From assembly GCA_016284515.1 (NCBI GenBank), contig JAEEOY010000040.1, positions 1-34,868 of the forward strand: 34,868 nucleotides of DNA, read 5' to 3'. Source of the stretch: Kiritimatiellia bacterium (GTDB taxonomy: Bacteria > Verrucomicrobiota > Kiritimatiellia > RFP12 > UBA1067). The position numbers were made by a program, and so were the translations under genes. Below, piece by piece: positions 7-20,857 of this stretch; positions within the stretch are counted from its first letter, which is position 1; each line of letters starts with the position of its first letter. Below the pieces are notes generated by a model. That model ran no database searches and was not told where the DNA came from. It saw nothing but the letters and a program-made list of their open reading frames with translations.

Positions 7-26
7 GGTAATGATTACCAATTACC
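7..26. promoter_or_regulatory. palindrome GGTAAT-G-ATTACC plus extra ATTACC upstream of GCL operon
   Basis: Perfect 13-bp palindrome at 7-19 and repeated ATTACC at 21-26, just upstream of the TATAAT at 47-52. Confidence 0.5.
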
Positions 27-46
27 ATATGCACCCGGGGACGGGT

Positions 47-52
47 TATAAT
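47..52 (+). promoter_or_regulatory. -10 box TATAAT of GCL operon
   Basis: Exact TATAAT, 10 nt before ATG 63. Confidence 0.6.
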
Positions 53-62
53 AGCGGCACCT

Positions 63-1454
63 ATGAGCAACCAGCCGACACTATCAGACGCGCTTCAGGC
101 GCGGTTCTTCGCTCCGCTGCGCCGAAAGCGCACGCGGCGCGTCGGCGTTGAGCTGGAGTTGCCGGTTTGGAACCTCACGCCCGATGCGGCGACTGACTTC
201 TCCGCCGTCCATGCGGCGACCGAGGATTTCCTTTCGCGCTTCCCGTTCTCGGACTATGTGCGGGACGACGAAGGCGCGGTATACCGCGCGACCGATCCCG
301 CTACCCGCGACGAGCTTTCCTTTGACTGCTCATACAACACTCTCGAGCTGTCCTTTGGCCCGGGTGAGGACCTGAACGAGACGCACCGCCGATTTGTGTC
401 CTACTATTCGGCGCTTCAGGACGCGTTCGGACATCACGGACACGCTCTTACCGGAATGGGGATCAATCCGCGCTGGCGCGTGAACCGGGAGTCCCCGATA
501 GGCAACGGACGCTACCGCATGCTTCTCCACCACCTGAAGTCGTATTCCAAGTACGGCGGATCGCCCCAGTTCCACGACCATCCCGACTTCGGGCTATTCT
601 CCTGCTCGTCGCAGACGCAGGTCGACGCCGATGAAGATACTTTGGTTCCGCTCATCAACACATTCAATCTGCTGGAGCCGTTCAAGGCGGCTCTCCTCGC
701 CAACTCCCCGTTCGGCGAGCGAAGCGAGACGCTGTGCGGACGCGACGCGCTCTGGAGCAAGAGTCTCCACGGCCTCAACCCGCACAACTGCGGAATGTAC
801 GGCGTGACCCTTCGCTCACTTGCGGACATCGAGGGATACCTCGAGTCGACAAGCGTCTACTGCGTGGAGCGGGGAGAGCGCTACATCAACTTCGCGCCAG
901 TTCCGCTGCGCGAGTATCTCGGACTCGGCACGGTTGTCGGCGAATACTGGGACGGAGCGGCGAAAGTCCACCGCCGGTGCCTCATCACGCCGTCTCCCGC
1001 CGATGTAGCCTGGCTCAGGCCCTTCAAGTTCGAGGACCTAACTCAGCGCGGCACGGTCGAGTTCAGGTCTGTCTGCGAGCAGCCCGTCCGCGAGGCGTTC
1101 GCCTCCGCCGCGTTCCACGCCGGACTCTCCGAGTGCGTCGGCGAGCTTCTCGCGCTGCTGTCCGAGGACACGGTCCTATACGGACACGGCTACGGCGCGA
1201 CGGAGCTGCGCGGGATGATGATACGCCGCGCGTGGCCGTCCTTCGTAGACCGCGCGGACCTCAAGGCGCAGCTCCACCGCATCCTCGACATCGCGGAGAG
1301 GGGCCTTGCGCTCCGCGGCTTCGGCGAGGAGCCGCTTCTCGACCCGCTGCGCGAACGCGCCGACACGCTCGCGAGCCCAGCGCGTGAGCATCTCTCCCGC
1401 CTCGAGCGCGGCGAATCGCTCGACTCGATCGCGAAAGACTACGGCAGTCTGTAG
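63..1454 (+). CDS. glutamate-cysteine ligase-like protein (GCL paralog 1)
   Basis: ORF of 463 aa with RVGVELELPVWN near the N-terminus and ..GINPRWRVNRES.., carboxylate-amine ligase-like; next gene is also GCL-like. TATAAT at 47-52. Confidence 0.7.
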   Translation: MSNQPTLSDALQARFFAPLRRKRTRRVGVELELPVWNLTPDAATDFSAVHAATEDFLSRFPFSDYVRDDEGAVYRATDPATRDELSFDCSYNTLELSFGPGEDLNETHRRFVSYYSALQDAFGHHGHALTGMGINPRWRVNRESPIGNGRYRMLLHHLKSYSKYGGSPQFHDHPDFGLFSCSSQTQVDADEDTLVPLINTFNLLEPFKAALLANSPFGERSETLCGRDALWSKSLHGLNPHNCGMYGVTLRSLADIEGYLESTSVYCVERGERYINFAPVPLREYLGLGTVVGEYWDGAAKVHRRCLITPSPADVAWLRPFKFEDLTQRGTVEFRSVCEQPVREAFASAAFHAGLSECVGELLALLSEDTVLYGHGYGATELRGMMIRRAWPSFVDRADLKAQLHRILDIAERGLALRGFGEEPLLDPLRERADTLASPAREHLSRLERGESLDSIAKDYGSL

Positions 1455-1464
1455 GAGGCCCGAC

Positions 1465-2730
1465 ATGATAGACGTCAGACTTCCAGAGTTGCGGGCGCAC
1501 GCGTTCGAGGGGAACTTCGGACTCGAGCGCGAGGCGCTGCGCGTGACGGACGAGGGACGGATGGCGCACACGCCGCATCCGTTCTCCGCCGACCATCCGC
1601 GCGTTGTCCGCGACTTCTGTGAGAACCAGACCGAGATCAACACGCGCGTCTGGCCGAGCGCGGAGGAGGCGGTGGCGGAGCTTGAGTCGCTGAACGCGGA
1701 TATACTGCGGGAGATCGCCGCTAAGAACGGAGAACTGCTGTGGCCGTTCTCGAACCCGCCGCCGCTTGAAGGGGAGGACGACGTAATCCCGGCGAAGTTC
1801 ACCGGACACCGCGCCGGGAAGTCCGCATACCGCGACTACCTCTCCTCGAAGTACGGACGCTACCTGATGACGTACTGCGGAATCCACGTCAACTTCTCCT
1901 TCGGCGAGCGTCTTCTCGCCGCGTCGGGCGCGGACAGGAATGCGCTCTATCTGCACGTCGCGTCCGAGTCCGTCGTCTGGGGCTGGATCGTCGTAGCGCT
2001 TACCGCGGCGAGTCCGCTCGTCGACGTCTCGTTCCTCTCGCGCGAGTCGGGAAGTAGGCATGTCCCCTCGGACGTTTTCACCGGCTTCGCCTCCGTGCGC
2101 TGCGGCGATCTCGGATACTGGAACCACTTTGCCCCCGTGAACGACTACTCGGGCGTAAAGGCGTACGCCGACGCGATACGCGGGTATGTGCGCCGCGAAC
2201 TCATCGCCGCGCCGAGCGAACTCTACTATCCCGTGCGCCTCAAGCCGCGTGGCGCGAACAGACTCGAGACCTTGGAGGAGGAGGGAATCGATCACCTGGA
2301 GCTGAGATGCGTCGATCTGAATCCGTTCGCCGACGGACTCGTCGATGCGCGCGACATAAGGTTCGTTCAGCTCTTTCTCCTGTGGTGCGCGGCGCGTCCG
2401 CAGGCATGTCTCACGGAGTTCGTGCAGGTCCAGGCAGTGCGCAACTTCAAGAACGCCGCGCGCTACGACCTCGACCTCGCGAACATCACGCTGCCGGACG
2501 GCACGTCCGCGTCCGTCCGCGACACGGGGCTCAGGCTGCTTGACTCGATGGGACGGTTCTTCGCGGACTTCCCGCGCGAAGAAGCGGCGGATATAATCGC
2601 GTTCGAGCGCGGAAAGCTGGAGCATCCGGAAAGCCGCTACGCGGCGCGGGTCCTTGAGCGCTTCGGAGGAACGTTTGCGGAAAAGGGGCTGGCGCTCGCC
2701 CGGAAGCTGACGGAGGACGCCAATGTGTGA
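1465..2730 (+). CDS. gshA: glutamate-cysteine ligase (GshA/GshF N-terminal type, GCL paralog 2)
   Basis: In-frame ATG at 1465 preceded by GGAGG; protein MIDVRLPELRAHAFEGNFGLEREALRVTDEGRMAHTPHPF..DFCENQTEINT matches the GshA/GshF ligase signature. Confidence 0.8.
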   Translation: MIDVRLPELRAHAFEGNFGLEREALRVTDEGRMAHTPHPFSADHPRVVRDFCENQTEINTRVWPSAEEAVAELESLNADILREIAAKNGELLWPFSNPPPLEGEDDVIPAKFTGHRAGKSAYRDYLSSKYGRYLMTYCGIHVNFSFGERLLAASGADRNALYLHVASESVVWGWIVVALTAASPLVDVSFLSRESGSRHVPSDVFTGFASVRCGDLGYWNHFAPVNDYSGVKAYADAIRGYVRRELIAAPSELYYPVRLKPRGANRLETLEEEGIDHLELRCVDLNPFADGLVDARDIRFVQLFLLWCAARPQACLTEFVQVQAVRNFKNAARYDLDLANITLPDGTSASVRDTGLRLLDSMGRFFADFPREEAADIIAFERGKLEHPESRYAARVLERFGGTFAEKGLALARKLTEDANV

Positions 2731-3499
2731 GCTTCTCGGATTTTCATCGCGTCGGCGCAGAAACGTCACGCCCCTCCTGCGGGAGTTCTTCTCGCACGCC
2801 GAGCGGCATCCGCACGGATGGGGCCTCGCGCGCTTCGTGGACGCGTCCGCCCCGCAGATCGAGAAGGAGCCGGTGAAGGCGACGGAGAGCGAGACGTTGC
2901 GGCGAATTCTCGACGAAGGCGTTGAAGCGCGGACACTTCTCGGGCACATTCGCCTCGCGACGGTCGGGACGATGGAATACGCGAACTGCCATCCGTTCTC
3001 AGAGACGGACAACTCCGGCCGTGTTTGGACGCTCGTCCACAACGGGACTATTTTCTCTGGCGGGGCGCTTAACGACTATCTCGGCGTGCAGTTCGGCGAG
3101 ACGGACTCGGAGCGCGTCCTTCTCCACTTCATTGCGCGCGTCAACCGCCGGCAGTTCAGGCTGGGGCGCCCGCTTGACGAGAAGGAGCGCTTCGACGTTC
3201 TCGCATCAGCCATCGCCGCGCTCGCGAAGGGGAACAAGCTCAATCTGCTGATATTCGACGGAGAGGTGATGTATGCGCACACAAACTTCCGAGGGGCGCT
3301 TCATTTCCTGAAGGACGAAGACTCGATCGCATTCTCCACGCAGCCGCTTTCCTACGGCGAATGGCATCCTGTCCCGTTCACAACTCTCGTCGCGGTGAAG
3401 GATGGGAGGTTCGTTCGAGAAGGCTCGCCGCACGGAAAAGAGTACATCCACAATCCCGAAGACTACCAGATGGTCTACATGAACTACTCGCGGCTGTGA
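2723..3499 (+). CDS. class II glutamine amidotransferase (YafJ/EgtC-like)
   Basis: [10 protein letters not shown]-terminal Cys2, [21 protein letters not shown] and HNGTI motifs; start overlaps the preceding stop by 8 nt. Confidence 0.85.
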
Positions 3500-3569
3500 C
3501 GGTCGGCCATAGGCTGAGACTATGGATGAATACGGGAATTTCCTATTATCAACATGGCGGCGGATTTTA

Positions 3570-3575
3570 TATAAT
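3570..3575 (+). promoter_or_regulatory. -10 box TATAAT for pdxST
   Basis: Exact TATAAT; an upstream in-frame ATG (3574) overlaps it, so 3607 (AAGGAG Shine-Dalgarno) is the better start. Confidence 0.55.
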
Positions 3576-3606: not shown

Positions 3607-4479
3607 ATGGCAGACAGGCAGGAACTGAACCGCAACCTCGCGCAGATGCTCAAGGGCGGCGTGATAATGGACGTGACTACGCCAGAGCAGGCGAAGATCG
3701 CCGAGCAGGCGGGCGCGTGCGCCGTGATGGCGCTCGAGCGCATTCCGGCCGACATACGCGCGGCGGGAGGCGTTTCGCGCATGAGCGACCCCGCGATGAT
3801 CAAGGGCATACAGGCGGCGGTGTCGATTCCGGTGATGGCGAAGTGCCGCATCGGACACATCGCCGAGGCGCGCATCCTAGAGGCGATCGAGATCGACTAC
3901 ATCGACGAGTCCGAGGTGCTTTCTCCCGCGGACGACGTGCGGCACATTGACAAGAACAAGTTCAACGTTCCCTTCGTCTGCGGCGCGCGCGACCTCGGCG
4001 AGGCGCTCAGGCGCATCGGTGAGGGCGCGACGATGATCCGCACGAAGGGCGAGCCCGGTACTGGCGACGTCGTCCAGGCCGTGAGGCACATGCGCAAGAT
4101 GCAGAGCGAAATTCGCCGCGTCGTGTCGCTCCGCGAGGACGAGCTCTATGAGGCGGCGAAGGAACTCGCCGCGCCGCTCGACCTGGTGAAGTATGTGCAC
4201 GAGAATGGCAAGCTCCCCGTCGTGAACTTCGCGGCTGGCGGAGTCGCGACGCCCGCTGACGCCGCGCTCATGATGGAGCTTGGCGCGGAGGGCGTTTTCG
4301 TCGGCTCGGGAATCTTCAAGTCGGGCGATCCCGCGAAGCGCGCTTCCGCGATCGTGCAGGCCGTCACGAACTGGCAGGACTCGAAGCTTCTCGCGAAGCT
4401 CTCCGAGAACCTCGGCCCCGCGATGGTCGGCATCAACGCCGACGAGATCGAGACGATCATGGAAGAGCGAGGGAAGTAG
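3607..4479 (+). CDS. pdxS: pyridoxal 5'-phosphate synthase lyase subunit PdxS
   Basis: [62 protein letters not shown].., highly conserved PdxS sequence. Confidence 0.97.
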
Positions 4480-4512: not shown

Positions 4513-5067
4513 ATGAAGGTCGGTGTTCTATCTGTTCAGGGCGCGTTTGCCGAGATGGCTGCGCACTGGCGCGCGCAGGGCGCGGAGACGTTCGAGATAC
4601 GGCAGCTGTCGGACCTCGACCGCGGCATGGATCTTCTTGCGCTCCCGGGTGGCGAATCGACGGTGCAGGGGAAGCTACTGAAGGACCTAGGGCTCTTCGA
4701 TCCGCTAAAGGCGAAGATCGACGGCGGACTTCCCGTGTACGCGACATGCGCAGGGCTGATCCTCCTTGCGGAGAAAATCGACGACCCCGGGCGGCGCGAC
4801 GACACAAGACCAGAGAAGTGGTTCGGAGCACTCCCCGTCGCGGTCAGGCGCAACGCCTACGGGCGGCAGCTCGGAAGCTTCACCATGCGAGGAGACTTCG
4901 ACGGAAAGCACGACTTCCCGATGACGTTTATCCGTGCGCCGGCGATAACGGACGTGCTCTCGCCGGACGTCGAGGTGCTCTCGACGTTCGACGGCGCGCC
5001 CACCGCAGTCCGCTGGCGCAACATCACGGGCTTCACATGGCATCCGGAGCTCAACGCGATGGCCTAG
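4513..5067 (+). CDS. pdxT: pyridoxal 5'-phosphate synthase glutaminase subunit PdxT
   Basis: MKVGVLSVQGAFAEMAAHWRAQGAETFEIR..LALPGGESTVQGKLL..YATCAGLILLA; adjacent to pdxS. Confidence 0.96.
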   Translation: MKVGVLSVQGAFAEMAAHWRAQGAETFEIRQLSDLDRGMDLLALPGGESTVQGKLLKDLGLFDPLKAKIDGGLPVYATCAGLILLAEKIDDPGRRDDTRPEKWFGALPVAVRRNAYGRQLGSFTMRGDFDGKHDFPMTFIRAPAITDVLSPDVEVLSTFDGAPTAVRWRNITGFTWHPELNAMA

Positions 5068-5091: not shown

Positions 5092-6021
5092 ATGACACTT
5101 CAGCAGCTCAAGTATGCGGACGCAGTCGCGACGTGCGGGAGCATCAGCGAGGCCGCGCGGCGCGTCTTCGTCACGCAGCCCACGCTCACCGAGTCGATAC
5201 GCGCGCTCGAGGAGGAGCTTCGCACCGCAATCTTCACCCGGTCCGCGCGCGGCATCGTCGTCACGCGCGAGGGCGAGGAGTTCCTCGCCTCGGCGCGGCA
5301 GATCCTCGACGACGCCGCGAGGATCCAGGAGAAGTACACGGGCAAGGCGGTGAGGAAGCCGCAGTTCGCCGTCTCCTGCCAGCACTACGCCTTCGCGGTC
5401 GAGGCGTTCATGGAGGTTGTTAAGGAATGCGATTCGGCTTCCTATGACTTCACGCTGCGCGAAACGGTCACAAGCGAGATCATCGACGACGTCGCGCGCC
5501 GCCGCAGCGAGATCGGCGTAATGTACCTCTCGACCCGCAACGAGCGGGTGATCTCGAAGCTGCTCAAGAAGGAAGGGCTCGGTTTCAACGGGCTTTTCGT
5601 GTCGCATCCGCATGTGTTCCTCGGTAGGCGGCATCCCCTTGCCAAGCGCAAGGGCGGCGTCACGCCCGAGGAGCTCGACGACTATCCGTTCATCTCGTTC
5701 GAACAGGGAGCCGAGAACGCGCTCTATTTCGCGGAAGAGGTGATGCCATCCATCGACCGCAAGAAGAACATCCGCGTGCGCGACCGCGCCACCATGACAA
5801 ACCTCATCCTCGGGCTCAACGGATTCACCGTCGCCTCTGGTGCTCTGTCCAGAGATCTCAACGGTCCCGACGTCATCGCCGTGCCGCTCAAGATGGACGA
5901 GATAATCCGAGTTGGGCTCGTGACGCAAAGCGATGTGCCACTATCGGCGGCCGGCAAGATCTTTGAAGCCGCTATCCGTCGTCGCTGCGCCGAGCGCAGC
6001 TACGACGACGCAGGACTTTAG
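5092..6021 (+). CDS. LysR family transcriptional regulator
   Basis: MTLQQLKYADAVATCGSISEAARRVFVTQPTLTESIRALEEEL.. typical LysR winged HTH plus LysR substrate-binding domain. Confidence 0.93.
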   Translation: MTLQQLKYADAVATCGSISEAARRVFVTQPTLTESIRALEEELRTAIFTRSARGIVVTREGEEFLASARQILDDAARIQEKYTGKAVRKPQFAVSCQHYAFAVEAFMEVVKECDSASYDFTLRETVTSEIIDDVARRRSEIGVMYLSTRNERVISKLLKKEGLGFNGLFVSHPHVFLGRRHPLAKRKGGVTPEELDDYPFISFEQGAENALYFAEEVMPSIDRKKNIRVRDRATMTNLILGLNGFTVASGALSRDLNGPDVIAVPLKMDEIIRVGLVTQSDVPLSAAGKIFEAAIRRRCAERSYDDAGL

Positions 6022-6189: not shown

Positions 6190-6531
6190 ATGAAACTGAT
6201 CATAGCCTACATTCAGCCCGAGAGACTGAATGCCGTCAAGCAGGCGTTGTTCGCCCGCGAGATATACAAGATGTCCGTGACAAATGCGCTAGGTTGCGGA
6301 AAGCAGGGCGGGTACCTGCACTTGTACCGTGGCGCTGTGGAGGAAGTGACGCTCCACAAGAAGATGCGACTTGCGATTGCGGTCAACGACAATTACATCG
6401 ACAAGACGATCGACGCCATAGTAGATGGGGCGCGCACTGGGGAAATCGGCGACGGAAAGATCTTCGTCCTTCCGATGGACGAGTGCGTGCGAATAAGAAC
6501 CGGGGAACGCGGCCCGTCCGCGATAGGATAA
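6190..6531 (+). CDS. PII family nitrogen regulatory protein (atypical T-loop, no Tyr51)
   Basis: [82 protein letters not shown] signatures; followed by amtB. Confidence 0.93.
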
Positions 6532-6546
6532 AGGAGAGCAAATAAA

Positions 6547-7842
6547 ATGGAACCTGAAATAACCACTGCAGCAGTTCAAACCAACCTGAACGTAGTATGG
6601 ACCCTCATCGCCGGCATCCTCGTCTTCACGATGCAGGCGGGCTTCGCGCTCGTCGAGACCGGCTTCACCCGCGCCAAGAACGCGGCGAACATCATGATGA
6701 AGAACTTGATGGACTTCGCCGCGGGCTCCCTGGGATTCTACATCCTCGGAGCGGCGCTGATGTTCGGCGCGACGAAGCTTGGCGGCTGGCTCGGATGGGG
6801 GGGCTTGGGCATGCCGTCGCTTTCGACCGGCGAAGGCGTCTGGGACTGGACGTTCCTGTTCTTCCAGACGATGTTCGCCGCGACCGCCGCGACCATCGTG
6901 TCCGGCGCGGTCGCTGAGCGCATCGAGTTCAAGAGCTACCTCATCTACTCTGTGATCGTCAGCGCGATCGTGTATCCGATCAGCGGACACTGGATGTGGG
7001 GCTCGCTCGCGGGCGAGGCGTCGCAGGGCTGGATCGAGGCCCTCGGCTTCCACGACTTCGCGGGCTCGACGGTCGTCCACTCCGTCGGCGGATGGATCGC
7101 CCTCGCAGGCGCAATCGCGCTCGGTCCGCGCATCGGAAAGTACCGCCACGACGGGAAGGCGAATCCGATCCCGGGGCACAGCCTCGTCCTCGGCACGCTC
7201 GGCGTTTTCCTCCTGTGGATCGGCTGGTTCGGATTCAACCCCGGCTCCTACACCCAGGGCATCGGCTCCATCGGACGCGTCGCGATGACCACCAACCTCG
7301 CCGCGTGCGCCGGCACGATCGCCGCGCTCGTCACCGCCTGGGTGATCATGGGCAAGCCCGACCTCACCATGGCGCTGAACGGCTCGCTCGCGGGCCTCGT
7401 CGCGATCACCGCTCCGTGCGACCTCGTGACCGCCAACGCGTCGATCATCATCGGACTCGTCGCCGGCGTGCTCGTTGTCCTCTCGGTCTTCGCGCTCGAC
7501 AAGATCCACATCGACGACCCTGTCGGCGCTGTGTCGGTCCACTGCGTGAACGGCGTCTGGGGCACGCTCGCCGTCGGACTCTTCGCCGCGCCGACTGCGG
7601 CGGGCTACGGAAATGAACTCGTCGGGCTCTTCTACGGCGGCGGATTGAAGTTCCTCGGCGTGCAGCTGCTCGGCGCAGGCGCGACGGCGGTCTGGGCGTT
7701 CGGCACGGGCGCGGCGATCTTCTTCGCGCTGAAGAAGCTCGGCATCCTCCGCGTCAGCGCCAAGACCGAGCTCAAGGGCCTCGACCTGACCGAGCACGGA
7801 CAAGACGCGTACGCCTCGTTCCAGTTCTTCAGCAACACCTGA
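6547..7842 (+). CDS. amtB: ammonium transporter (Amt/MEP)
   Basis: FTMQAGFALVETGFTRAKNAANIMMKNLMDFAAGSLGFY.. and ..GGWIALAGAIALGPRIGKY.. are diagnostic Amt motifs. Confidence 0.97.
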   Translation: MEPEITTAAVQTNLNVVWTLIAGILVFTMQAGFALVETGFTRAKNAANIMMKNLMDFAAGSLGFYILGAALMFGATKLGGWLGWGGLGMPSLSTGEGVWDWTFLFFQTMFAATAATIVSGAVAERIEFKSYLIYSVIVSAIVYPISGHWMWGSLAGEASQGWIEALGFHDFAGSTVVHSVGGWIALAGAIALGPRIGKYRHDGKANPIPGHSLVLGTLGVFLLWIGWFGFNPGSYTQGIGSIGRVAMTTNLAACAGTIAALVTAWVIMGKPDLTMALNGSLAGLVAITAPCDLVTANASIIIGLVAGVLVVLSVFALDKIHIDDPVGAVSVHCVNGVWGTLAVGLFAAPTAAGYGNELVGLFYGGGLKFLGVQLLGAGATAVWAFGTGAAIFFALKKLGILRVSAKTELKGLDLTEHGQDAYASFQFFSNT

Positions 7843-7910
7843 TTAAGCAACTGGGTGTCACCAAGAATTCAGAAATCCAAATACAACATCGTAAAAAAGG
7901 AATCATAAAA

Positions 7911-8726
7911 ATGAAAGCAACCATAGCAATCCTGGCCGTCGCCGCGTCCTTCGCGGCGGCGGCGGAAGAAGCGGCGGCGGAAGAAGCCAGCGAACCGGCC
8001 ACTGCCTCTCCCGGGAAATTCTCCGCCGAGGTCTCCGTCGATGTGCTTAGCGACTACATCTGGCGCGGAAAGATCTGCAACGGGAATCCCGTCTGGCAGC
8101 CGAGCGCCACGCTTGCCTACGAGTACGGCGACTTCGGCAAGGTCTCCGCCAACGTCTGGGCCAGCATGGACCTAACCCACCGCCGCGGCACGATGAACGC
8201 GAGCCGGCATGCATGCGGAATCCAGGAGCTCGACTACACGCTGGCGTACGCCAACTCGTTCGGTCCCGTAGACGTCGAGATCGGGCACATCTGGTACTCG
8301 TTCCCCTACGGCAACGGACGCTCCACCGAGGAGCTCTACGGAACAGTGGCGTACAACAACCCGATCGCGACCCCGTCGCTCACGGTGTACTGGGACTATC
8401 TCGACACCGCTGGTAACGACGTCTCGGCCGTCTACGCGACGTTTGCGCTCTCGCGTGACTTTGAGCCGGTCGAGAAGCTGACGGTCACACCATCCGCCGC
8501 ACTGAGCTTCGCCGACCATGCCTACACCGGCTCGTCCGGCGGCACTGAGGCGACCGACTTGACACTCGGCGTCGCGGCGTCATACGCCGTTACGGAGTGG
8601 TTGTCGCTGGGCGCGCAGCTCAACTACACCTGGACACCCTCGCGCACTCTCCGCAACGAGGGATACATGGGCGAAGGCGAGCACCAGATCGTCTGGGGCG
8701 GCGTAAACGCAACGCTCTCGTTCTAG
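7911..8726 (+). CDS. putative outer-membrane beta-barrel porin (TorF/Gcw_chp-like) downstream of amtB
   Basis: Signal peptide-like N-terminus; SAEVSVDVLSDYIWRGKICNGNPVWQPSATLAYEYGDFGKVSANVWAS; C-terminal beta strand ending in F. Confidence 0.65.
   Translation: MKATIAILAVAASFAAAAEEAAAEEASEPATASPGKFSAEVSVDVLSDYIWRGKICNGNPVWQPSATLAYEYGDFGKVSANVWASMDLTHRRGTMNASRHACGIQELDYTLAYANSFGPVDVEIGHIWYSFPYGNGRSTEELYGTVAYNNPIATPSLTVYWDYLDTAGNDVSAVYATFALSRDFEPVEKLTVTPSAALSFADHAYTGSSGGTEATDLTLGVAASYAVTEWLSLGAQLNYTWTPSRTLRNEGYMGEGEHQIVWGGVNATLSF
7956..7985 (+). repeat. two perfect tandem copies of GCGGCGGCGGAAGAA (15 bp)
   Basis: Direct read; encodes AAAEE-AAAEE after the signal peptide of the porin. Confidence 0.9.
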
Positions 8727-8743
8727 TTTAAGCGTAAATCTTG

Positions 8744-8785
8744 CCTGCGGCGCGGTTCCGTACTTGTTCCCGCGCCGCAGGTTTT
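8744..8785 (+). terminator. rho-independent terminator after the porin gene
   Basis: CCTGCGGCGCGG (8744-8755) / CCGCGCCGCAGG (8770-8781), perfect 12-bp stem followed by TTTT. Confidence 0.8.
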
Positions 8786-8812
8786 GCCTCAAGAAGCCGA
8801 CGGAGCAGGAAC

Positions 8813-10633
8813 ATGGAAGGAGTTTACAGAATTGCCGCTGCAACGCCGCGCCTCCACCTAGGGGACGCGGCGGCAAACGCGAAGGAGCTTGTGCGGCTCG
8901 CCAAGGCCGCCGCCAGGGATGGGGTATCTGCGATCGTATTCCCCGAACTGTGCCTGACCGGATATACCTGTGGCGACATGTTCTTCCGCGACGAGCTTCT
9001 CCGCGCCGCGTCAGCGGCGGTTGAGGTGTTTGCCGCCAAAACAGCATCCCTGCCGCTGGTCTCAGTCGTCGGACTGCCGATTGCTGATGGCCCGGCAATA
9101 TACAACGCAGCGGCCGTCGTCCACGGTGGAAAGGTGGTCGGAACCGTCCGCAAGCGCACTCTGCCGAACTACGGCGAATACTACGAGCGGAGGCAGTTCA
9201 CGCCTGCGCCCGCCGGCGAGCCGCTTGCCGTCTTCGACGTCGGTTCGTTCCGGTTCGGCGTCGAGATCTGCGAGGATCTTTGGACGCCCGTGCCGCCGAG
9301 TTCGCTGATGGCGGAATGCGGCGTCGACGTGGTGTTCAACCTTTCCGCCAGCACGGAATTCCTTGGCAAGTCGCAGAAGCGCCGGTCGCTCGTCGAGCAG
9401 CAGAGCCTGCGCCTCGGGTGCGCCTACGCGATGGCATGCGCCGGCACTGGGGAGTCGAGTTCCGACGCGGTCTATGGCGGATGCCCGCTCATCGCCGTGG
9501 AAGGCAGGACGGTTGCCGAGGGCAAGATGCTGCGCGCCGCGCCCCAGATCGTCGCGGCGGACGTCGATGTTGCCGCGGCCCGTCACCGCAGAAGGAGCAC
9601 TTCTTCTGTCTACTGCTCCCGTTCCCTCGCCGGTGTCGGCCAGCAGACGCAGCTGGTCGCCGTCTCCGCCCAGGTGCCGGAGTCGACGCCGTCCGTCCTC
9701 TCCTGCTCGCCCTTTCTGGACGAGTATGGCGAGGACCGATGGTGGCGTAGGCTTCTGGACATCCAGGCGGCGGGACTCGCGCGGCGCATGGCGAGCGCCT
9801 CCGTCGGGCGGCTTGTCGTCGGCGTGTCGGGCGGTGCGGACTCCGCGCTCGCGCTTCTTGGCGCCTCTGCGGCGCTCGACCGGATGGGGCTTGAACGCGA
9901 CAGTCTTCTTGCCGTCGTCATGCCTGGGTTCGGATCGACGAAAACCACGCAGAGCCGCGCCGTCGCGCTGGCGGAAGCGGTCGGCGCGTCGGTACGCGTC
10001 GTTGACATCCGCGAGTCGTGCCGCAGGCACCTCCTCGAGATAGGACATGTCGAGGGCGTTCACGACATCGCCTACGAGAACGCCCAGGCGCGGGAGCGGA
10101 CACAGGTCCTGATGGACCTCGCAAACATGGAACACGCGCTTGTAGTCGGCACGGGAGACCTCTCCGAGATCGCCCTCGGGTGGAACACATACAACGGCGA
10201 CCACATGAGCATGTACCAGATCAACGCATCCGTGCCGAAGACGATGGTGCTCGCAGCCCTGCGTCATATCGCGGAAGAATCGGAGGAAAGACTGGGCGAC
10301 ATTCTGCGCCGGACGGCCTCATCGCCGATTACGCCGGAACTTATCCCCGATGCCGCAGCCAACGACTCGGAGGTGCGGCTCGGTCCTTACGAGCTGCATG
10401 ACTTCTTCCTCTTTCACTATCTTGTGGATGGCGCGGCGGCGGACAAGCTGCGCGAAATGGCGCGAATTGCGTTTGCCGGGAAACATTCGCCCGAAGAGGT
10501 CGACGACACGCTTTGCAAGTTCATCAGACGTTTCCGCGCCGCCCAGTATAAACGCAACTGCGTCCCCGACGGTCCGAAAATCACGCTTTCCCTCTCCCCG
10601 CGCGCAGACTGGCGCATGCCTAGCGACATGTAG
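8813..10633 (+). CDS. nadE: glutamine-dependent NAD+ synthase
   Basis: N-terminal nitrilase domain (FPELCLTGYTCGDMF.., GVEICEDLWTPVPPSS) and C-terminal synthetase (VVGVSGGADSALAL). Start at 8813 rather than 8741, because 8741 lies in the terminator. Confidence 0.95.
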   Translation: MEGVYRIAAATPRLHLGDAAANAKELVRLAKAAARDGVSAIVFPELCLTGYTCGDMFFRDELLRAASAAVEVFAAKTASLPLVSVVGLPIADGPAIYNAAAVVHGGKVVGTVRKRTLPNYGEYYERRQFTPAPAGEPLAVFDVGSFRFGVEICEDLWTPVPPSSLMAECGVDVVFNLSASTEFLGKSQKRRSLVEQQSLRLGCAYAMACAGTGESSSDAVYGGCPLIAVEGRTVAEGKMLRAAPQIVAADVDVAAARHRRRSTSSVYCSRSLAGVGQQTQLVAVSAQVPESTPSVLSCSPFLDEYGEDRWWRRLLDIQAAGLARRMASASVGRLVVGVSGGADSALALLGASAALDRMGLERDSLLAVVMPGFGSTKTTQSRAVALAEAVGASVRVVDIRESCRRHLLEIGHVEGVHDIAYENAQARERTQVLMDLANMEHALVVGTGDLSEIALGWNTYNGDHMSMYQINASVPKTMVLAALRHIAEESEERLGDILRRTASSPITPELIPDAAANDSEVRLGPYELHDFFLFHYLVDGAAADKLREMARIAFAGKHSPEEVDDTLCKFIRRFRAAQYKRNCVPDGPKITLSLSPRADWRMPSDM

Positions 10634-10660
10634 CCTTTCACCCAACTGGCGATGGTGTGA

Positions 10661-10666
10661 TATAAT
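10661..10666 (+). promoter_or_regulatory. extended -10 (TGA-TATAAT) of lysE-like gene, predicted leaderless
   Basis: TGATATAAT, 7 nt before ATG 10674. Confidence 0.65.
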
Positions 10667-10673
10667 ATCCGCC

Positions 10674-11309
10674 ATGCTTTCGACCTACATAATCGGATGC
10701 GTCGCGCTCATCATCAAGCCCGGGCCGGACTTGTTGTGCACGCTCGCGACGGCAATCGCCGACGGCAAGGCGCGCGCCTCTACGCTCATGGCCGGACTCG
10801 TGCTCGGCTGCTGGCTGTGGATCTGGCTGCTCGCGGCAGGGGTGGCATCGTTCTTCACCACGCATCAAGGCGTGATGACGGCGATACAGCTCGTAGGGAT
10901 CGCCTACATCGCCTATCTGGCGATTGGATCGTTCAGGGAGGCAATCAACGGATTCCGCCATCGCACAGAGAACGCGCTCTGTCCGGCTGCGGCGAAAGGC
11001 TGGCGGCTTGTGGGACGCGGCGTCCTGATGGCGATGTCGAATCCGCTGACGATTCTCTTCTTCCTGGCGTTTCTTCCGAACTTCACGCAGCAGGAATCCG
11101 CATTCCCGCCCGCCGTGCAGGTGCTGCTCCTCGGTACGCTTTTCTGCGCGCTCGTTCCGTTCATCTACTTCCCGATCATCATCGCTGCGGACTTCTTCCG
11201 TGCGCGCCTGCTCGGTTCGGCAAAGGCGACGGCCTCGCTCAAGCTCGTCTCCGCTCTCATGCTCACGGCCGTCACGGTCATACTGTCCATGCCCATGTTC
11301 GGACTGTAG
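10674..11309 (+). CDS. LysE/RhtB family amino-acid exporter
   Basis: KPGPDLLCTLATAIADGKARASTLMAGLVLGCWLW.. and MSNPLTILFFLAFLPNF motif. Confidence 0.9.
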   Translation: MLSTYIIGCVALIIKPGPDLLCTLATAIADGKARASTLMAGLVLGCWLWIWLLAAGVASFFTTHQGVMTAIQLVGIAYIAYLAIGSFREAINGFRHRTENALCPAAAKGWRLVGRGVLMAMSNPLTILFFLAFLPNFTQQESAFPPAVQVLLLGTLFCALVPFIYFPIIIAADFFRARLLGSAKATASLKLVSALMLTAVTVILSMPMFGL

Positions 11310-11359
11310 ACTGTGTCGAATGGACTTATCCCGAAGGATCGGGTCTTAATGCGCTGGCC

Positions 11360-11390
11360 GTACGTTGGGCGGGCAACTGCCCGACCCGTA
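11360..11390 (+). repeat. GTACGTT-GGGCGGGCAACTGCCCGACCC hairpin, left flank of the MNT/HEPN module
   Basis: CGGGC-AACT-GCCCG stem with outer GGG/CCC; similar element at 12198-12220. Confidence 0.6.
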
Positions 11391-11432
11391 AAAACTTTTT
11401 GCGCCCGAAAAGCGGAAAATGACGGAATATGA

Positions 11433-11438
11433 TATAAT
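11433..11438 (+). promoter_or_regulatory. extended -10 (TGA-TATAAT) of MNT/HEPN operon
   Basis: TGATATAAT, 13-19 nt before candidate ATGs at 11452/11458. Confidence 0.6.
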
Positions 11439-11451
11439 ATTTGCACTTGAT

Positions 11452-11751
11452 ATGTGTATGCTGGACGAGATACGTGCGAAGCGGGATGAGATATACGCTA
11501 TCGCGAGGAGACACAAGGCCGAAAAGCTTTGGGTCTTCGGCTCCTGCGCCCGCAGGGAAGAGCGCCCTGACAGCGACGTGGATTTTCTTGTCAAATGGAT
11601 GCCGGGCGAGTATAGTTGGCGTAATGAACGTGCAATGTCATCCGCATATGAAAAACTGCTTGGCAGCAAAGTTGACCTTGTGGCATCTCGAATTCTGCCG
11701 CAGTCTCTTGGCTTTGCGCATCGTGTTTGCAAGGAGGCCGTGCCGGTATGA
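11452..11751 (+). CDS. mntA: MNT-type minimal nucleotidyltransferase antitoxin (MntA-like)
   Basis: GS-X10-DXD motif: GSCARREERPDSDVDFLV. The 11419 start overlaps the promoter, so 11452 or 11458 is used. ATGA overlap with the next gene. Confidence 0.88.
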   Translation: MCMLDEIRAKRDEIYAIARRHKAEKLWVFGSCARREERPDSDVDFLVKWMPGEYSWRNERAMSSAYEKLLGSKVDLVASRILPQSLGFAHRVCKEAVPV

Positions 11752-12143
11752 CGAATCCTTCGCTTTATCGTGATGATTCGCGTGTTCGGCACATGCTGGA
11801 TGCGATGGAACGGATAGCCGAGCTGAGCAGGGGGCTGGAGCGCGAACAATTGCGGCGGCATGAAAACACGACTGAGATGATCCTCTTTAATTTGATGGTG
11901 CTGGGTGAGGCAGCCAATAACATCACCCGTGAGTTTGCAGCCCAGAATCCGGATGTAGATTGGAAGGGGTTAGCTGGTGTTAGGCATAAGATTGTGCATG
12001 ATTATGCCGACATAGATTACGACACTATTTGGGATATACTGCAAAATGACATTCCGGTCGAATGTGAAAAAGTGAAAGCTGTCGCAGCAACACTTCCGCC
12101 GGAGCCAACGCTGCCACCTCCGAACATGGCGGATTTCCTGTAA
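11748..12143 (+). CDS. hepT: HEPN domain RNase toxin (HepT-like)
   Basis: RHKIVHDY = Rx4HxY HEPN motif; helical DUF86-like protein; overlaps the MNT gene by 4 nt. Confidence 0.88.
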   Translation: MTNPSLYRDDSRVRHMLDAMERIAELSRGLEREQLRRHENTTEMILFNLMVLGEAANNITREFAAQNPDVDWKGLAGVRHKIVHDYADIDYDTIWDILQNDIPVECEKVKAVAATLPPEPTLPPPNMADFL

Positions 12144-12197
12144 CCAATCTCAAACCGTAAACTGAAAATGAAAGGAACGGCAATCAGTCACTAACCG

Positions 12198-12220
12198 GTA
12201 CATAGGTGGGCAACGCCCCG
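12198..12220 (+). repeat. GTACATAGGTGGGCAACGCCCC, right flank element similar to 11360-11390
   Basis: GGGC-AAC-GCCC core, same orientation as the left flank copy. Confidence 0.5.
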
Positions 12221-12248
12221 TTAGCAGCCGGGCAGCAGAGACGACGGC

Positions 12249-12503
12249 GTGCATGTCTCCGCCATGCCCGACGAACTCGCCATCAGCGCGTTTTCCGCGG
12301 GCGAGGCCGATGCAATCACGGGGATGCCGTTCGGCACTGCAAAGCCTCCACGCGGTGAGGGAATGTCCGCTGAACGCTACGGCATGATCGAGGCGGCCTA
12401 CGAGGCAGGGTTTGCGCAGGGTGAACAGAGCCGCGTCTTCCCTCCGGTATCGGATATCTTCACCTCGACCACACATCGGCGCACGGCGCGCCGTCCGCGC
12501 TGA
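12249..12503 (+). CDS. short hypothetical ORF, possible gene remnant
   Basis: 84 aa ORF with no recognised family, between the TA module and the gltD promoter; no clear RBS. Confidence 0.25.
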   Translation: MHVSAMPDELAISAFSAGEADAITGMPFGTAKPPRGEGMSAERYGMIEAAYEAGFAQGEQSRVFPPVSDIFTSTTHRRTARRPR

Positions 12504-12521
12504 GGCCGAGGTTAGGTGGCA

Positions 12522-12568
12522 TTACAAGATTGCAACACCACGGCGCGGAGGAATTACAGGAATTGTAA
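12522..12568. promoter_or_regulatory. tandem operator/UAS upstream of gltD: TTACA-AGAT-TGCAA (12522) and TTACA-GGAAT-TGTAA (12554-12568)
   Basis: Two TTACA elements exactly 32 bp apart, the same as upstream of PII. Confidence 0.65.
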
Positions 12569-12600
12569 AGGATCGGACGGTAGGATCGGGTTTTGGTCGC

Positions 12601-12618
12601 TTGGCATGGGTTGTGCTA
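12601..12618 (+). promoter_or_regulatory. sigma54-like -24/-12 promoter for gltD-glmS
   Basis: TTGGCATG-GGTT-GTGCTA; GG (12603) to GC (12615) = 12 bp as in canonical sigma54 promoters; ATG 12632 lies ~4 nt after the predicted +1. Confidence 0.6.
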
Positions 12619-12631
12619 AATTGCACATGAT

Positions 12632-13987
12632 ATGCAACGAATACACGACATCTACCGTCCGACCGATGAACGCGTCACTGACTGGCGCGAGGTCGAACGT
12701 GCGCTCACCGACGAAGAACTCAAGGAGCAGACCTCGCGCTGCATGAACTGCGGACAGCCGTTCTGCCACGCATACGGGTGTCCGCTCGGCAACCTGGTCC
12801 CCGACCAGAACCGCGCCGTCGCGCAGGGCGACTGGAAGCGTGCCTACGCGCTCCTCTCGGCGAATTCCGACTTCCCCGAGTTCACCTCGCGGATATGTCC
12901 GGCATTGTGCGAGGCGAGTTGCGTGCACGGACTCGACGAGGAGGCGGTCATGGTGCGGCAGTCGGAGAAGCGCATCATCGAGACGGCGTTCGCCAACGGA
13001 TGGGTCGTGCCGCGTCCGCCGGAAAGGGAGAACGGCAAGTCCGTCGCCGTCATCGGCGCTGGGCCTGCGGGTCTTTCGGCGGCCGTCACCCTGCGCCGCC
13101 GCGGATTCGCGGTGACGGTGTACGAGCGCAGGAAGAACATCGGCGGACTCCTCCGCTACGGAATCCCGTGCTTCAAGCTGGACAAGGCGCTTATCGACAG
13201 AAGGCGCAAGGTTCTGGAGGCGGAGGGAATCCGGTTCGTGACGGACTGCGAGGTCGGGAAGGACGTCTCCGCGGAGTGGCTGAAGAAGGAGCACGACGCG
13301 GTAGTAGTGGCGATCGGAACGCCAGCAGCGCGCGACCTCAGGATCCCCGGACGCGAACTCGGCGGCATTCATCTCGCGCTTGAGCTTCTGGAAGGACAGA
13401 ATCGTTTCCTGACGGGGGAAATCACTGAGGCGCCGATCAACGCGAAGGGTAAGAAGGTCCTCGTGATAGGCGGAGGCGATACGGGCAGCGACTGCGTGGG
13501 CACGTCGATCCGCCAGGGCGCGGCGAGCGTGACGCAGATAGAGATCATGCCGAAGCCGCCGGACGAACGCGACGCCTCCACGCCGTGGCCGCTCTGGCCA
13601 TACATGCTGCGCACAAGCTCCAGCCACAAAGAAGGGTGCGTGCGGCGCTGGAACCTGAATTCGCTGAGGTTCATCGGCGATGGACATGTCTCCGGCGTTG
13701 AAGTGGAGACAGTCGAATGGGAGTTCACTCCCGAAGGCAGACCTGCGAAGTTCCACAGCGTGCCGAACACCAAGGAACTCATCGAGGCAGACCTTGTGTT
13801 CCTCGCGATGGGATTCACCGGCGTTCCGGCGGAGAATCCGATCGTCTCGCAGCTGAAGCTCGCGCAGACGCCGCGCACCGCCCTTGTCGCCGATCCCGCG
13901 CGGAACATCTTCTGCGTCGGCGACTGCGCGTCCGGCGCGTCTCTCGTCGTCCGCGCGCTCGCAAGTGGAAAATCACTACAAATCTAG
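12632..13987 (+). CDS. gltD: glutamate synthase small (NAD(P)H-dependent) subunit
   Basis: CMNCGQPFCHAYGCPLGNLVPDQN, FTSRICPALCEASC, IGAGPAGLSAAVTLRRRGFAVTVYE, GDCASGASLVVRALASGKSLQI. Confidence 0.96.
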   Translation: MQRIHDIYRPTDERVTDWREVERALTDEELKEQTSRCMNCGQPFCHAYGCPLGNLVPDQNRAVAQGDWKRAYALLSANSDFPEFTSRICPALCEASCVHGLDEEAVMVRQSEKRIIETAFANGWVVPRPPERENGKSVAVIGAGPAGLSAAVTLRRRGFAVTVYERRKNIGGLLRYGIPCFKLDKALIDRRRKVLEAEGIRFVTDCEVGKDVSAEWLKKEHDAVVVAIGTPAARDLRIPGRELGGIHLALELLEGQNRFLTGEITEAPINAKGKKVLVIGGGDTGSDCVGTSIRQGAASVTQIEIMPKPPDERDASTPWPLWPYMLRTSSSHKEGCVRRWNLNSLRFIGDGHVSGVEVETVEWEFTPEGRPAKFHSVPNTKELIEADLVFLAMGFTGVPAENPIVSQLKLAQTPRTALVADPARNIFCVGDCASGASLVVRALASGKSLQI

Positions 13988-13997
13988 GCAGGACACC

Positions 13998-15842
13998 ATG
14001 TGTGGAATAGTGGGTTTTACTTCACGGAACAGACCGGCGATTGGCCCGCTAGTCAACGGCCTCAGGCGGCTCGAATACCGCGGATACGACTCGGCGGGCG
14101 TAGCGCTTGAGTCTGCGGACGGCATAAAGGTATACAAGCAGACGGGGAAAGTCGCAGAGCTCGACAGCCTCCTTTCGCGGGCGCTCCCCGAAGGCGAGCG
14201 CGGCAAGTACACTCTCGGCATCGCGCACACGCGCTGGGCGACGCACGGACTCCCCACCGTCGCCAACGCGCATCCGCACATTGCCGACGAAGGCCGCCTC
14301 GCGCTTGTCCACAACGGCATAATCGAGAATTACGCGGCGCTTCGCGCTGGGCTTGAGAAGCGCGGAGCGAAGTTCCTTTCGCAGACCGACACCGAGGTCG
14401 TTGCGCATTTGGTCGCAGCGTTCGACAAAGGCGACTTTCTGACGGCCGTAGCCGAGGCGCTCAAGCGCGTCGAGGGGACTTACGGAATCGCTGCGATATC
14501 GGCGAGGCATCCTGGCGAAATGGTGGTTGCGCGCAAAGGAAGTCCTCTCGTCATAGGCGTAGGAGAAGACGACATCGTAGTCGCGAGCGATGTGTCTGCA
14601 ATTGTCGCGTACACCAGGCAGGTAATCTACCTAAAGGACGGCGACATAGCGCGCATCACGCCAAAAGGCGTGGACATCCACACCCTCGACAACTCGCCCG
14701 TCACGCGCGAAGTGCAGGAGGTGGACTGGGATATCGGCGCAATAGAGAAGGGCGGCTACGAGCACTTCATGCTCAAGGAGATATTCGAGCAACCAGACGC
14801 GCTCGCGAACACGATTCGCGGACGGCTCGACCCCGCGGGAGGAACGGCGTTCCTCTCTGGGCTCTCGCTGTCTCCGCGCGAACTGGCAGCCGTGAGGCGC
14901 GTCGTCATCGTGGGGTGCGGGACTTCGCTGCATGCAGGCATGGTCGGCAAGTACCTGTTCGAGAAGCTGGCCGACATTCCGACGGCTCCCGAGCAGGCGG
15001 CGGAGTTCAGGTACTCGAATCCGATTGTCGGGCCAGACGATTGGGTGATGGCATTGTCGCAGTCGGGCGAGACGGCCGACACGCTTGCGGCCGTCCGCGA
15101 GTCGATCAGGAAGGGCGCGCTCGTTTCGGGGCTATGCAACGTCGTCGGGTCCACGATCGCCCGCGAAGCCGGGCGGGGCGTATATCTCCACGCGGGCCCC
15201 GAGATTTCCGTTGCGTCGACCAAGGCGTTTACCGCGCAGGTGACGGCGCTTCTCATGACGGCACTTAAGCTCGGCAGGACGCGCCGCCTCTCGTTCGAGG
15301 ACGGCGATAGGCTTGTGAAGGAAATCTCACGCCTTCCCGAACTCGTCGGCAAGGTGCTCGAGGGCAACGATGCAATCGCGAAAGTCGCGGAAAAGTACGC
15401 GAAGGCGGACGACATGTTCTTCATAGGGCGAGGGATGCTGCATCCTGTTGCGCTCGAGGGGGCGCTCAAGATCAAGGAAGTCGCCTATGTGCACGCTGAG
15501 GGTTATCAGGCGGCGGAGCTAAAGCACGGGCCGATAGCGCTCCTCTCGGAGAAGACGCCGGTCGTCGCGCTGCTCGCCGACATCCCCGGCAAGGAGAAGA
15601 CGCTCGGCAACGTGCAGGAGTGCCGTGCACGCCTTGCGCCGGTTGTCGGTGTGGTGACGGAAGGCGACGAAGCCGCGGCCGCGGCGGTCACGGATGCGCT
15701 TGTGATCCCGAAGACCTGCGCGGAGCTGTCTCCCATCGTCACGGTGGTGGTGCTACAGCTTTTCGCGTACCACGTCGCTCGGCTTCGCGGATGCGAAATT
15801 GACCAGCCGAGAAATCTTGCGAAGTCGGTCACCGTAGAGTAG
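13998..15842 (+). CDS. glmS: glutamine--fructose-6-phosphate aminotransferase (isomerizing)
   Basis: MCGIVGFTSRNRP..LRRLEYRGYDSAG; SIS domains; C-terminal PRNLAKSVTVE. Start at 13998. Confidence 0.97.
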   Translation: MCGIVGFTSRNRPAIGPLVNGLRRLEYRGYDSAGVALESADGIKVYKQTGKVAELDSLLSRALPEGERGKYTLGIAHTRWATHGLPTVANAHPHIADEGRLALVHNGIIENYAALRAGLEKRGAKFLSQTDTEVVAHLVAAFDKGDFLTAVAEALKRVEGTYGIAAISARHPGEMVVARKGSPLVIGVGEDDIVVASDVSAIVAYTRQVIYLKDGDIARITPKGVDIHTLDNSPVTREVQEVDWDIGAIEKGGYEHFMLKEIFEQPDALANTIRGRLDPAGGTAFLSGLSLSPRELAAVRRVVIVGCGTSLHAGMVGKYLFEKLADIPTAPEQAAEFRYSNPIVGPDDWVMALSQSGETADTLAAVRESIRKGALVSGLCNVVGSTIAREAGRGVYLHAGPEISVASTKAFTAQVTALLMTALKLGRTRRLSFEDGDRLVKEISRLPELVGKVLEGNDAIAKVAEKYAKADDMFFIGRGMLHPVALEGALKIKEVAYVHAEGYQAAELKHGPIALLSEKTPVVALLADIPGKEKTLGNVQECRARLAPVVGVVTEGDEAAAAAVTDALVIPKTCAELSPIVTVVVLQLFAYHVARLRGCEIDQPRNLAKSVTVE

Positions 15843-15856
15843 CGCTACGCGCGCTC

Positions 15857-15878
15857 GGCGCTTTGAGATAAAAGCGCC
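15857..15878 (+). terminator. hairpin after glmS (possible terminator)
   Basis: GGCGCTTT-GAGATA-AAAGCGCC perfect 8-bp stem 15 nt after the stop, followed by TT only. Confidence 0.5.
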
Positions 15879-16141
15879 TTGTCCTTGGGTTTGTCGCGCA
15901 CCTTTTAAGTTTCATCGCAGTCATACCGCGATGTTTTACCTGCCACGTCCTGCCGATCGTTTCTCTCTCCGATTAACTGATGTAATTTTGCCGTCCGAAT
16001 CCAGTATTGCATAAATCTGATCAATAGTTGTATTGCTGCCCCAAGATGAACCTGTGACCCCAACCCAACCATTGCCGCGTAGTGATAAACCTCCTATCCA
16101 AGGGCGGGATCGGCGGTAAAACTGTAATGACGCATCGCGCG

Positions 16142-16160
16142 TGTTACATGAATTGTAACA
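16142..16160. promoter_or_regulatory. palindromic operator/UAS upstream of gltB: TGTTACA-TGAAT-TGTAACA
   Basis: Perfect 7-bp inverted repeat with N5 spacer; same TTACA-N5-TGTAA core as at 6082 and 12554. Confidence 0.7.
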
Positions 16161-16221
16161 GATGAGCTGTGGATATTGCGCGGAATGTGTGTCTTTGCGC
16201 CTGTGCGCTGGAAACATGTGC

Positions 16222-16239
16222 TTGGCACAGAGTGTGCTA
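16222..16239 (+). promoter_or_regulatory. sigma54-like -24/-12 promoter for gltB
   Basis: TTGGCACA-GAGT-GTGCTA; correct GG/GC spacing; distance to ATG (31 nt from the first T) identical to gltD. Confidence 0.62.
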
Positions 16240-16252
16240 TCGTATTTTCGAT

Positions 16253-20857
<4,605 letters not shown>

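Follow-up and report, generated by a model that had tools for sequence, protein, structure and literature searches.

Two divergent glutamate-cysteine ligases and an Ntn amidohydrolase form a candidate gamma-glutamylcysteine module in a predicted cysteine regulon of rumen Kiritimatiellae

Gamma-glutamylcysteine (gamma-Glu-Cys) in the absence of GshB is known in haloarchaea and has been proposed for Methanobrevibacter and Methanosphaera of the rumen, and the stand-alone ligase of the methanogens is related to the N-terminal half of GshF (PMC7278568). In the EgtA/EgtC pair, a glutamate-cysteine ligase (GCL) is combined with a class II amidohydrolase that removes the gamma-glutamyl group, and in yeast Dug2/Dug3 cuts glutathione (GSH) at its gamma-glutamyl bond (PMC6508711). 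Here we describe an operon at the start of a 34,868-nucleotide contig (JAEEOY010000040.1, our contig C262; hereafter the window) of a Kiritimatiellia bacterium (assembly GCA_016284515.1, 3.86 Mb, 92% complete), in which two ligases of different classes, GCL1 and GCL2, are followed by an N-terminal nucleophile (Ntn) amidohydrolase, GAT2 (Table 1). On balance we lean towards reading this trio as a glutathione-less gamma-Glu-Cys module of a cysteine regulon, which would serve to buffer cysteine.

Similar to the haloarchaea and methanogens, the trio has a GCL without GshB, but it differs from them in that a single operon, within a predicted cysteine regulon, combines two ligase classes with a predicted gamma-glutamyl hydrolase of the Ntn type. 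It shares the combination of enzymes with EgtA/EgtC; however, EgtD is lacking in the 11 genomes searched (the source genome and 10 relatives), and neither GAT2 nor GCL1 comes near the cut-off for EgtC or EgtA, respectively. GAT2 is also comparable to Dug2/Dug3, by description and not by sequence, in its class II glutamine amidotransferase (GATase) domain and in a predicted action on the gamma-glutamyl bond of a thiol peptide, whereas here there is no GSH pathway and no Dug1/Dug2 partner was recognised in the operon.

The assignment of the trio to a predicted cysteine/sulfur regulon is our main new result. A strict promoter pattern, in which ATAG-N7-CTAT is followed after 20-23 nt by ATTA within TTCCGATTACC and then by TATAAT, lies ahead of the GCL1, PdxST, MetY and CysK operons. 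The ATAG-N7-CTAT box was found 36 times in 408 kb of related loci, some of them overlapping, where 1.7 matches were expected, and most of these matches lie 45-200 bp upstream of GCL1, PdxS, MetY or GCL2. With ATTW 20-23 nt downstream of the box, 45 matches were obtained in 20 genomes, compared with 8 for a reversed control. The readable genes downstream of strict matches are mostly MetY, CysK, the gene of a DUF3034 outer-membrane protein (OMP), PdxST, GCL1 or GCL2; the remaining sites lead into a further pair of MetY and CysK genes or into a carbonic-anhydrase-like gene accompanied by an HD gene, and a small number are unrelated or fall within a gene. The consensus of 51 sites reads cATAGG-N5-CCTATg ... 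TTCCGATTACCC ... TATAAT, in which the search bases are fixed by construction and the TTCC, ACC and TATAAT parts were free. In the source genome, a second site stands ahead of MetY-OMP-CysK on contig C157. The window begins 62 bp ahead of GCL1; part of the GCL1 promoter falls outside, and the box of the trio itself would lie upstream of the first base.

A T-N11-A dyad upstream of the promoter, a fixed spacing to ATTA and a LysR gene nearby together mark this as a predicted LysR-type promoter. Orthologues (70-93%) of the LysR-type regulator encoded in the window are found near boxes before pdxS or metY (L019, L065, L127, L128, L136, L148 and L158), and this regulator is our candidate binder of the box. 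The predicted regulon resembles the streptococcal CmbR cysteine regulon, which is also of LysR type and includes a glutathione-related member, gshT (PMC5131005), but the organisms and the operator are different, and the two are compared by description rather than orthology. In families f6 and f15, which gave no match to the first box, a palindrome of 17 bp, ACRACY-N5-RRTTGT, stands ahead of CysK and GCL1 and also ahead of OMP genes (13 found against 0.2 expected, with both orientations and overlapping loci counted; L024, L025, L064, L068, L106, L108 and L109), and an Rrf2/CymR-like gene lies beside CysK in L106. An Rrf2 palindrome with an N6 spacer returned nothing, and it was the N5 spacer, taken from the sequences, that gave these matches. 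Two unrelated cysteine switches therefore appear, as far as their predicted sites indicate, to control the same enzymes. No riboswitch or T-box was matched by Rfam models in the window or in 27 related loci.

The initial annotation had described three open reading frames in a tight operon, and this layout is confirmed, on one strand and with a gap of 10 nt between GCL1 and GCL2 and an overlap of 8 nt between GCL2 and GAT2. Some 20 metagenome-assembled genomes (MAGs) of rumen Kiritimatiellae also carry the trio, and the named loci that bear it come mostly from rumen MAGs with the titles Kiritimatiellae, Verrucomicrobia or Lentisphaerae. Because the orthologues are collinear in about 20 other MAGs, the three are genuine genes and not chance reading frames. 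Among 25 loci taken from genome contigs, GCL2 adjoins GCL1 in 22, and GAT2 comes next in nearly all in which the contig continues. The usual order is GCL1-GCL2-GAT2, and L023 has GAT2-GCL1-GCL2. Genome G039 probably has the order GCL2-GAT2-GCL1 across a contig break; two GATs in this genome, one per ligase, were considered and rejected, as the GAT2 fragments at the termini of contigs C69 (residues 1-152) and C24 (residues 193-258) resemble a single gene interrupted by an assembly gap. In L106 (genome G141) some 11 kb separate GCL1 from GCL2-GAT2, and in G013 GCL1 is on a separate contig. In the mosaic operon of L008 (1902-5173), GCL1, GCL2 and GAT2 are 89%, 62% and 69% identical to their counterparts in the window, which suggests that the gene set was retained though one member was swapped in place or diverged.

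We determined the co-occurrence of these genes in two sets of genomes, with p-values that ignore kinship among the genomes. In 58 relatives, GAT2 orthologues occur in 9 of the 11 genomes with GCL2 and in none of the 47 without it (Fisher 5e-9); the two that break the pattern, G048 and G050, have contigs that terminate at or just past GCL2. GCL1 was found in five of these relatives, always together with GCL2. In 388 genomes of the phylum, GCL1 occurs in 7 and close relatives of GCL2 in 11, and all seven of the former are nested within the latter (p = 1e-12). Several GCL2 genomes lack GCL1.

GCL2 is a PF04262-type glutamate-cysteine ligase (174 bits, E = 5e-51). Against the GshF model NF002688/TIGR01435 it scores 230 bits, below the cut-off of 425, and aligns only to positions 12-413 of 756, while complete GshF proteins of other Verrucomicrobiota score 616-917 bits; by this model GCL2 is not a GshF, and the ATP-grasp half is missing, as had been noticed at the outset. 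GCL2 aligns to the ligase half of GshF (GshAB) from other Verrucomicrobiota (L114-L118), but it stops before the ATP-grasp half and falls in a long-stemmed clade of its own. The idea that GCL2 arose recently by truncation of a GshF from Verrucomicrobiota is unsupported, since all GCL2s group together at the end of a long stem, in a tree with few outgroups and long-branch warnings. The positions aligned to E27, E29, D60, F61, E67, H150, N152, R235, Y300, E328 and R330 of E. coli GshA are kept in all rows that cover them, and the position aligned to Y241 is Y in 21 rows and F in 2, so that the 12 aligned metal, glutamate and cysteine-pocket positions show a single Y/F exchange. We take the roles of these residues to be those in the E. 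coli structures. Orthologues of GCL2 are 51-91% identical to the copy in the window.

GCL1 represents a subfamily of its own within the GCL fold. It belongs to the GCS2 superfamily by PF04107 (48.2 bits, E = 1e-12, gathering cut-off 21) but not to the class-3 GCLs of TIGR01436 (37.1 bits, cut-off 463.15), a model under which genuine members from Ruegeria and Paroceanicella plasmids reach 663-670 bits. Nor is it an EgtA: under TIGR03444 (cut-off 370.8) the GCL1 of the window did not appear at E <= 0.1, and its orthologue in L025 reached 21.8 bits. An AlphaFold2 (AF2) model of moderate confidence (pLDDT 73.5, pTM 0.82) has the plant GCL 2gwc as its top Foldseek match (E = 1e-14, TM 0.70), followed by YbdK; the proviso that GCL1 might come from a different family therefore did not come true. 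Residues E30, E32, E95, Q184, D188, R227, E333 and R335 are invariant in 20 GCL1 orthologues and two true class-3 GCLs, and the catalytic E-x-E and E-x-R are intact; GCL1 is probably active as an enzyme. Compared with the true class-3 GCLs, GCL1 has ELPV for EKFG, QTQVD for QVNLD, CGRD for SWRS and RSVCEQ for RGADGG. Its orthologues are 66-89% identical to the copy in the window, and it is more strongly conserved than GCL2 (mean column identity 78% vs 57%). Outside Kiritimatiellia, no GCL1 was found in the 388 phylum genomes, and plasmid matches had only 23-25% identity. Six cysteines (C89, C181, C225, C243, C267 and C338) are invariant in the 20 orthologues, and redox control is possible. GCL1 is divided over two frames in L027 (508-1919) and short by about 120 residues in L030 (6001-7050), through either assembly error or gene decay.

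GAT2 matches PF13230 (98.6 bits, E = 4e-28), and its nearest solved relatives by profile are the YafJ-like protein 1te5 and EgtC 4zfj. The nucleophile Cys2 is intact and an N-terminal Cys is present in the orthologues checked; for late-called reading frames the MCE start was recovered by reading upstream. With Arg77, Asn107-Gly108 and Asp128 also invariant among orthologues, which are 49-90% identical to the copy in the window, GAT2 is a class II (Ntn) amidohydrolase. The proposed likeness to YafJ and EgtC holds at this level, but the curated cut-off excludes GAT2 from EgtC (TIGR03442, 52.1 bits against 218.65).

Searches for downstream pathways in the 11 genomes, in which controls were positive, found no GshB, no EgtD (PF10017) and no GGT or BshC markers; the GshF ATP-grasp half was likewise absent from these genomes, which gave just weak generic ATP-grasp matches of 20-27 bits. 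The glutathione, ergothioneine, bacillithiol and GGT routes were considered and rejected for want of these markers. No full pathway to glutathione or ergothioneine, which would have explained the genes differently, thus turned up elsewhere, in agreement with the original view of a gamma-glutamyl ligase and hydrolase set that lacks such pathways. Its call for a conservation check was answered by the collinear trio and by the strict company of GAT2 with GCL2. Overall, the interpretation in the initial annotation is partly supported.

Cysteine or gamma-Glu-Cys is the simplest substrate because the operon lies in a predicted cysteine/sulfur regulon. As we infer the activities and the direction of flux, GCL2 would join glutamate and cysteine, with ATP and Mg, into gamma-Glu-Cys, and Cys2 of GAT2 would attack the gamma-glutamyl bond, as in EgtC and yeast Dug2/Dug3, to give glutamate and cysteine, or cysteine from a gamma-Glu-Cys adduct. 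GCL1, behind the same promoter, would share this pathway; the simplest role for it is that of another gamma-Glu-Cys ligase, one that differs in kinetics or control. The LysR-type regulator would switch the trio together with MetY, CysK and synthesis of pyridoxal phosphate (PLP), and new cysteine would be stored safely until drawn upon by the sulfur chemistry of Fe-S, thiazole, biotin and LarE. Several points weigh against this reading. Two ligases for a single product would be unusual, the altered motifs of GCL1 fit a changed acceptor, co-regulation and neighbours leave the substrate unfixed, and we know of no established substrate for YafJ-family proteins. Moreover, the genomes are MAGs of 75-100% completeness, so that each absence relies on the genomes agreeing with one another.

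GCL1 departs from true GCLs in several family motifs and could for this reason have a distinct acceptor, as the initial annotation proposed for one of the two ligases, and it is possible, rather than probable, that it glutamylates homocysteine, another sulfur amino acid or an amine, which GAT2 would deprotect to yield an unfamiliar thiol or protected sulfur compound. GCL1 is a separate and better-conserved subfamily with altered motifs and intact E-x-E and E-x-R, it is always additional to GCL2 in a genome, MetY, which handles homocysteine, is in the same predicted regulon, and EgtA/EgtC offer a precedent for adding and then removing the group (PMC7278568); however, no tailoring enzyme of the EgtB/D kind or similar accompanies the trio, and the genes that recur beside it are ordinary ones for cysteine, PLP and sulfur cofactors. 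A more elaborate version, with gamma-Glu-Cys from GCL2, a second gamma-glutamyl sulfur amino acid or amine from GCL1 and unmasking by GAT2, would make an undescribed low-molecular-weight thiol or protected sulfur carrier under the cysteine regulon in rumen Kiritimatiellae, and is rather doubtful. We regard it as unlikely that GAT2, instead of hydrolysing the ligase product, releases ammonia as a glutaminase or is a YafJ protein with a house-keeping role that happens to share the operon: its fold is common to GlmS and PurF, and PII, Amt, GltB/D and GlmS are close by in the window, but its orthologues were found in GCL2 genomes only and lack a synthase domain, and the nitrogen genes are inconstant neighbours. 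It is highly improbable that GCL1 stands in for the lost ATP-grasp half as a non-homologous enzyme that adds glycine or another residue to gamma-Glu-Cys, making glutathione or an analogue. Its fold activates carboxylates and it occurs only with GCL2 where GshB and the GshF ATP-grasp half are missing, yet in this branch the GCL-fold ligases known so far act by activating glutamate at its gamma-carboxylate, several GCL2 genomes do without GCL1, and we know of no precedent.

A literature search found no statement of the low-molecular-weight thiol used by uncultured rumen Kiritimatiellae, with incidental matches only. The gamma-Glu-Cys module offers a testable answer, namely gamma-Glu-Cys with dedicated recycling, and its link to the predicted cysteine regulon is readable from DNA alone. 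The acceptor of GCL1 is open to direct screening.

Table 1. Genes and predicted promoter elements of the window.
Feature	Position	Strand	Basis
-35-side element of trio promoter, TACCAATTACC	16..26	+	1 mismatch to TTCCNATTANC; comparison with complete L007 GCL1 promoter
TATAAT, probable -10 of trio	47..52	+	position relative to start as in L007; 51-site consensus
GCL1, divergent plant/alphaproteobacterial-type (GCS2) carboxylate-amine ligase, 463 aa	63..1454	+	PF04107, fold model, conserved residues
GCL2, stand-alone GshF-type N-terminal glutamate-cysteine ligase, 421 aa, without ATP-grasp half	1465..2730	+	PF04262, NF002688, active-site residues
GAT2, YafJ/EgtC/Dug3-like class II (Ntn) amidohydrolase, 258 aa	2723..3499	+	PF13230, 1te5 and 4zfj profile matches, Cys2
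Putative LysR-type operator (T-N11-A) of pdxST, ATAGGCTGAGACTAT	3509..3523	+	sole window match, 0.05 expected; 98 bp ahead of PdxS
-35-side element at fixed distance from box, TTCCTATTATC	3540..3550	+	promoter-pattern searches, consensus
TATAAT, probable -10 of pdxST	3570..3575	+	sequence, 51-site consensus
PdxS, PLP synthase lyase subunit, same predicted regulon	3607..4479	+	NF003215, 501 bits, cut-off 395
PdxT, PLP synthase glutaminase subunit	4513..5067	+	TIGR03800, 151 bits, cut-off 105.55
LysR-type regulator, proposed binder of ATAG-N7-CTAT box	5092..6021	+	PF00126/PF03466
LysE/RhtB-family exporter	10674..11309	+	TIGR00949, 83 bits, below cut-off; neighbour in L008, L019, L028, L065

The recurrent neighbours of the trio are CysK, MetY, the DUF3034 OMP, PdxST or pyridoxamine kinase, ThiF/G/H, LarE, BioB, PatB and a LysE/RhtB exporter, most of them confirmed by curated models. 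CysK-MetY-DUF3034-GCL2-GAT2 is one such arrangement, and L106 gives a complete instance, with Rrf2 beside CysK-MetY-OMP-PdxK-GCL2-GAT2. In L021 (5370-11366) the trio lies inside a thiamine-thiazole order, ThiF-GCL1-GCL2-GAT2-ThiG-ThiH, where ThiG is named from weak PdxS similarity and its place in the thi operon, with no NCBIfam match at 1e-12. In L151 the DUF3034 OMP gene of the regulon is followed by LarE/BioB. Positions 6190-20857 of the window hold nitrogen-assimilation genes, with PII, Amt, an OMP, NadE, LysE/RhtB, GltD, GlmS and GltB.

The regulon promoter also stands ahead of a carbonic-anhydrase-family gene (PF00484) and the HD-domain gene after it in L121, L122 and L159, with a second MetY as well in L159; a role in hydrolysis of a sulfur gas is speculation. 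In L131, L140, L141 and L155, DUF3034-type OMP genes are themselves direct members of the predicted regulon and possibly encode a channel for sulfur compounds.

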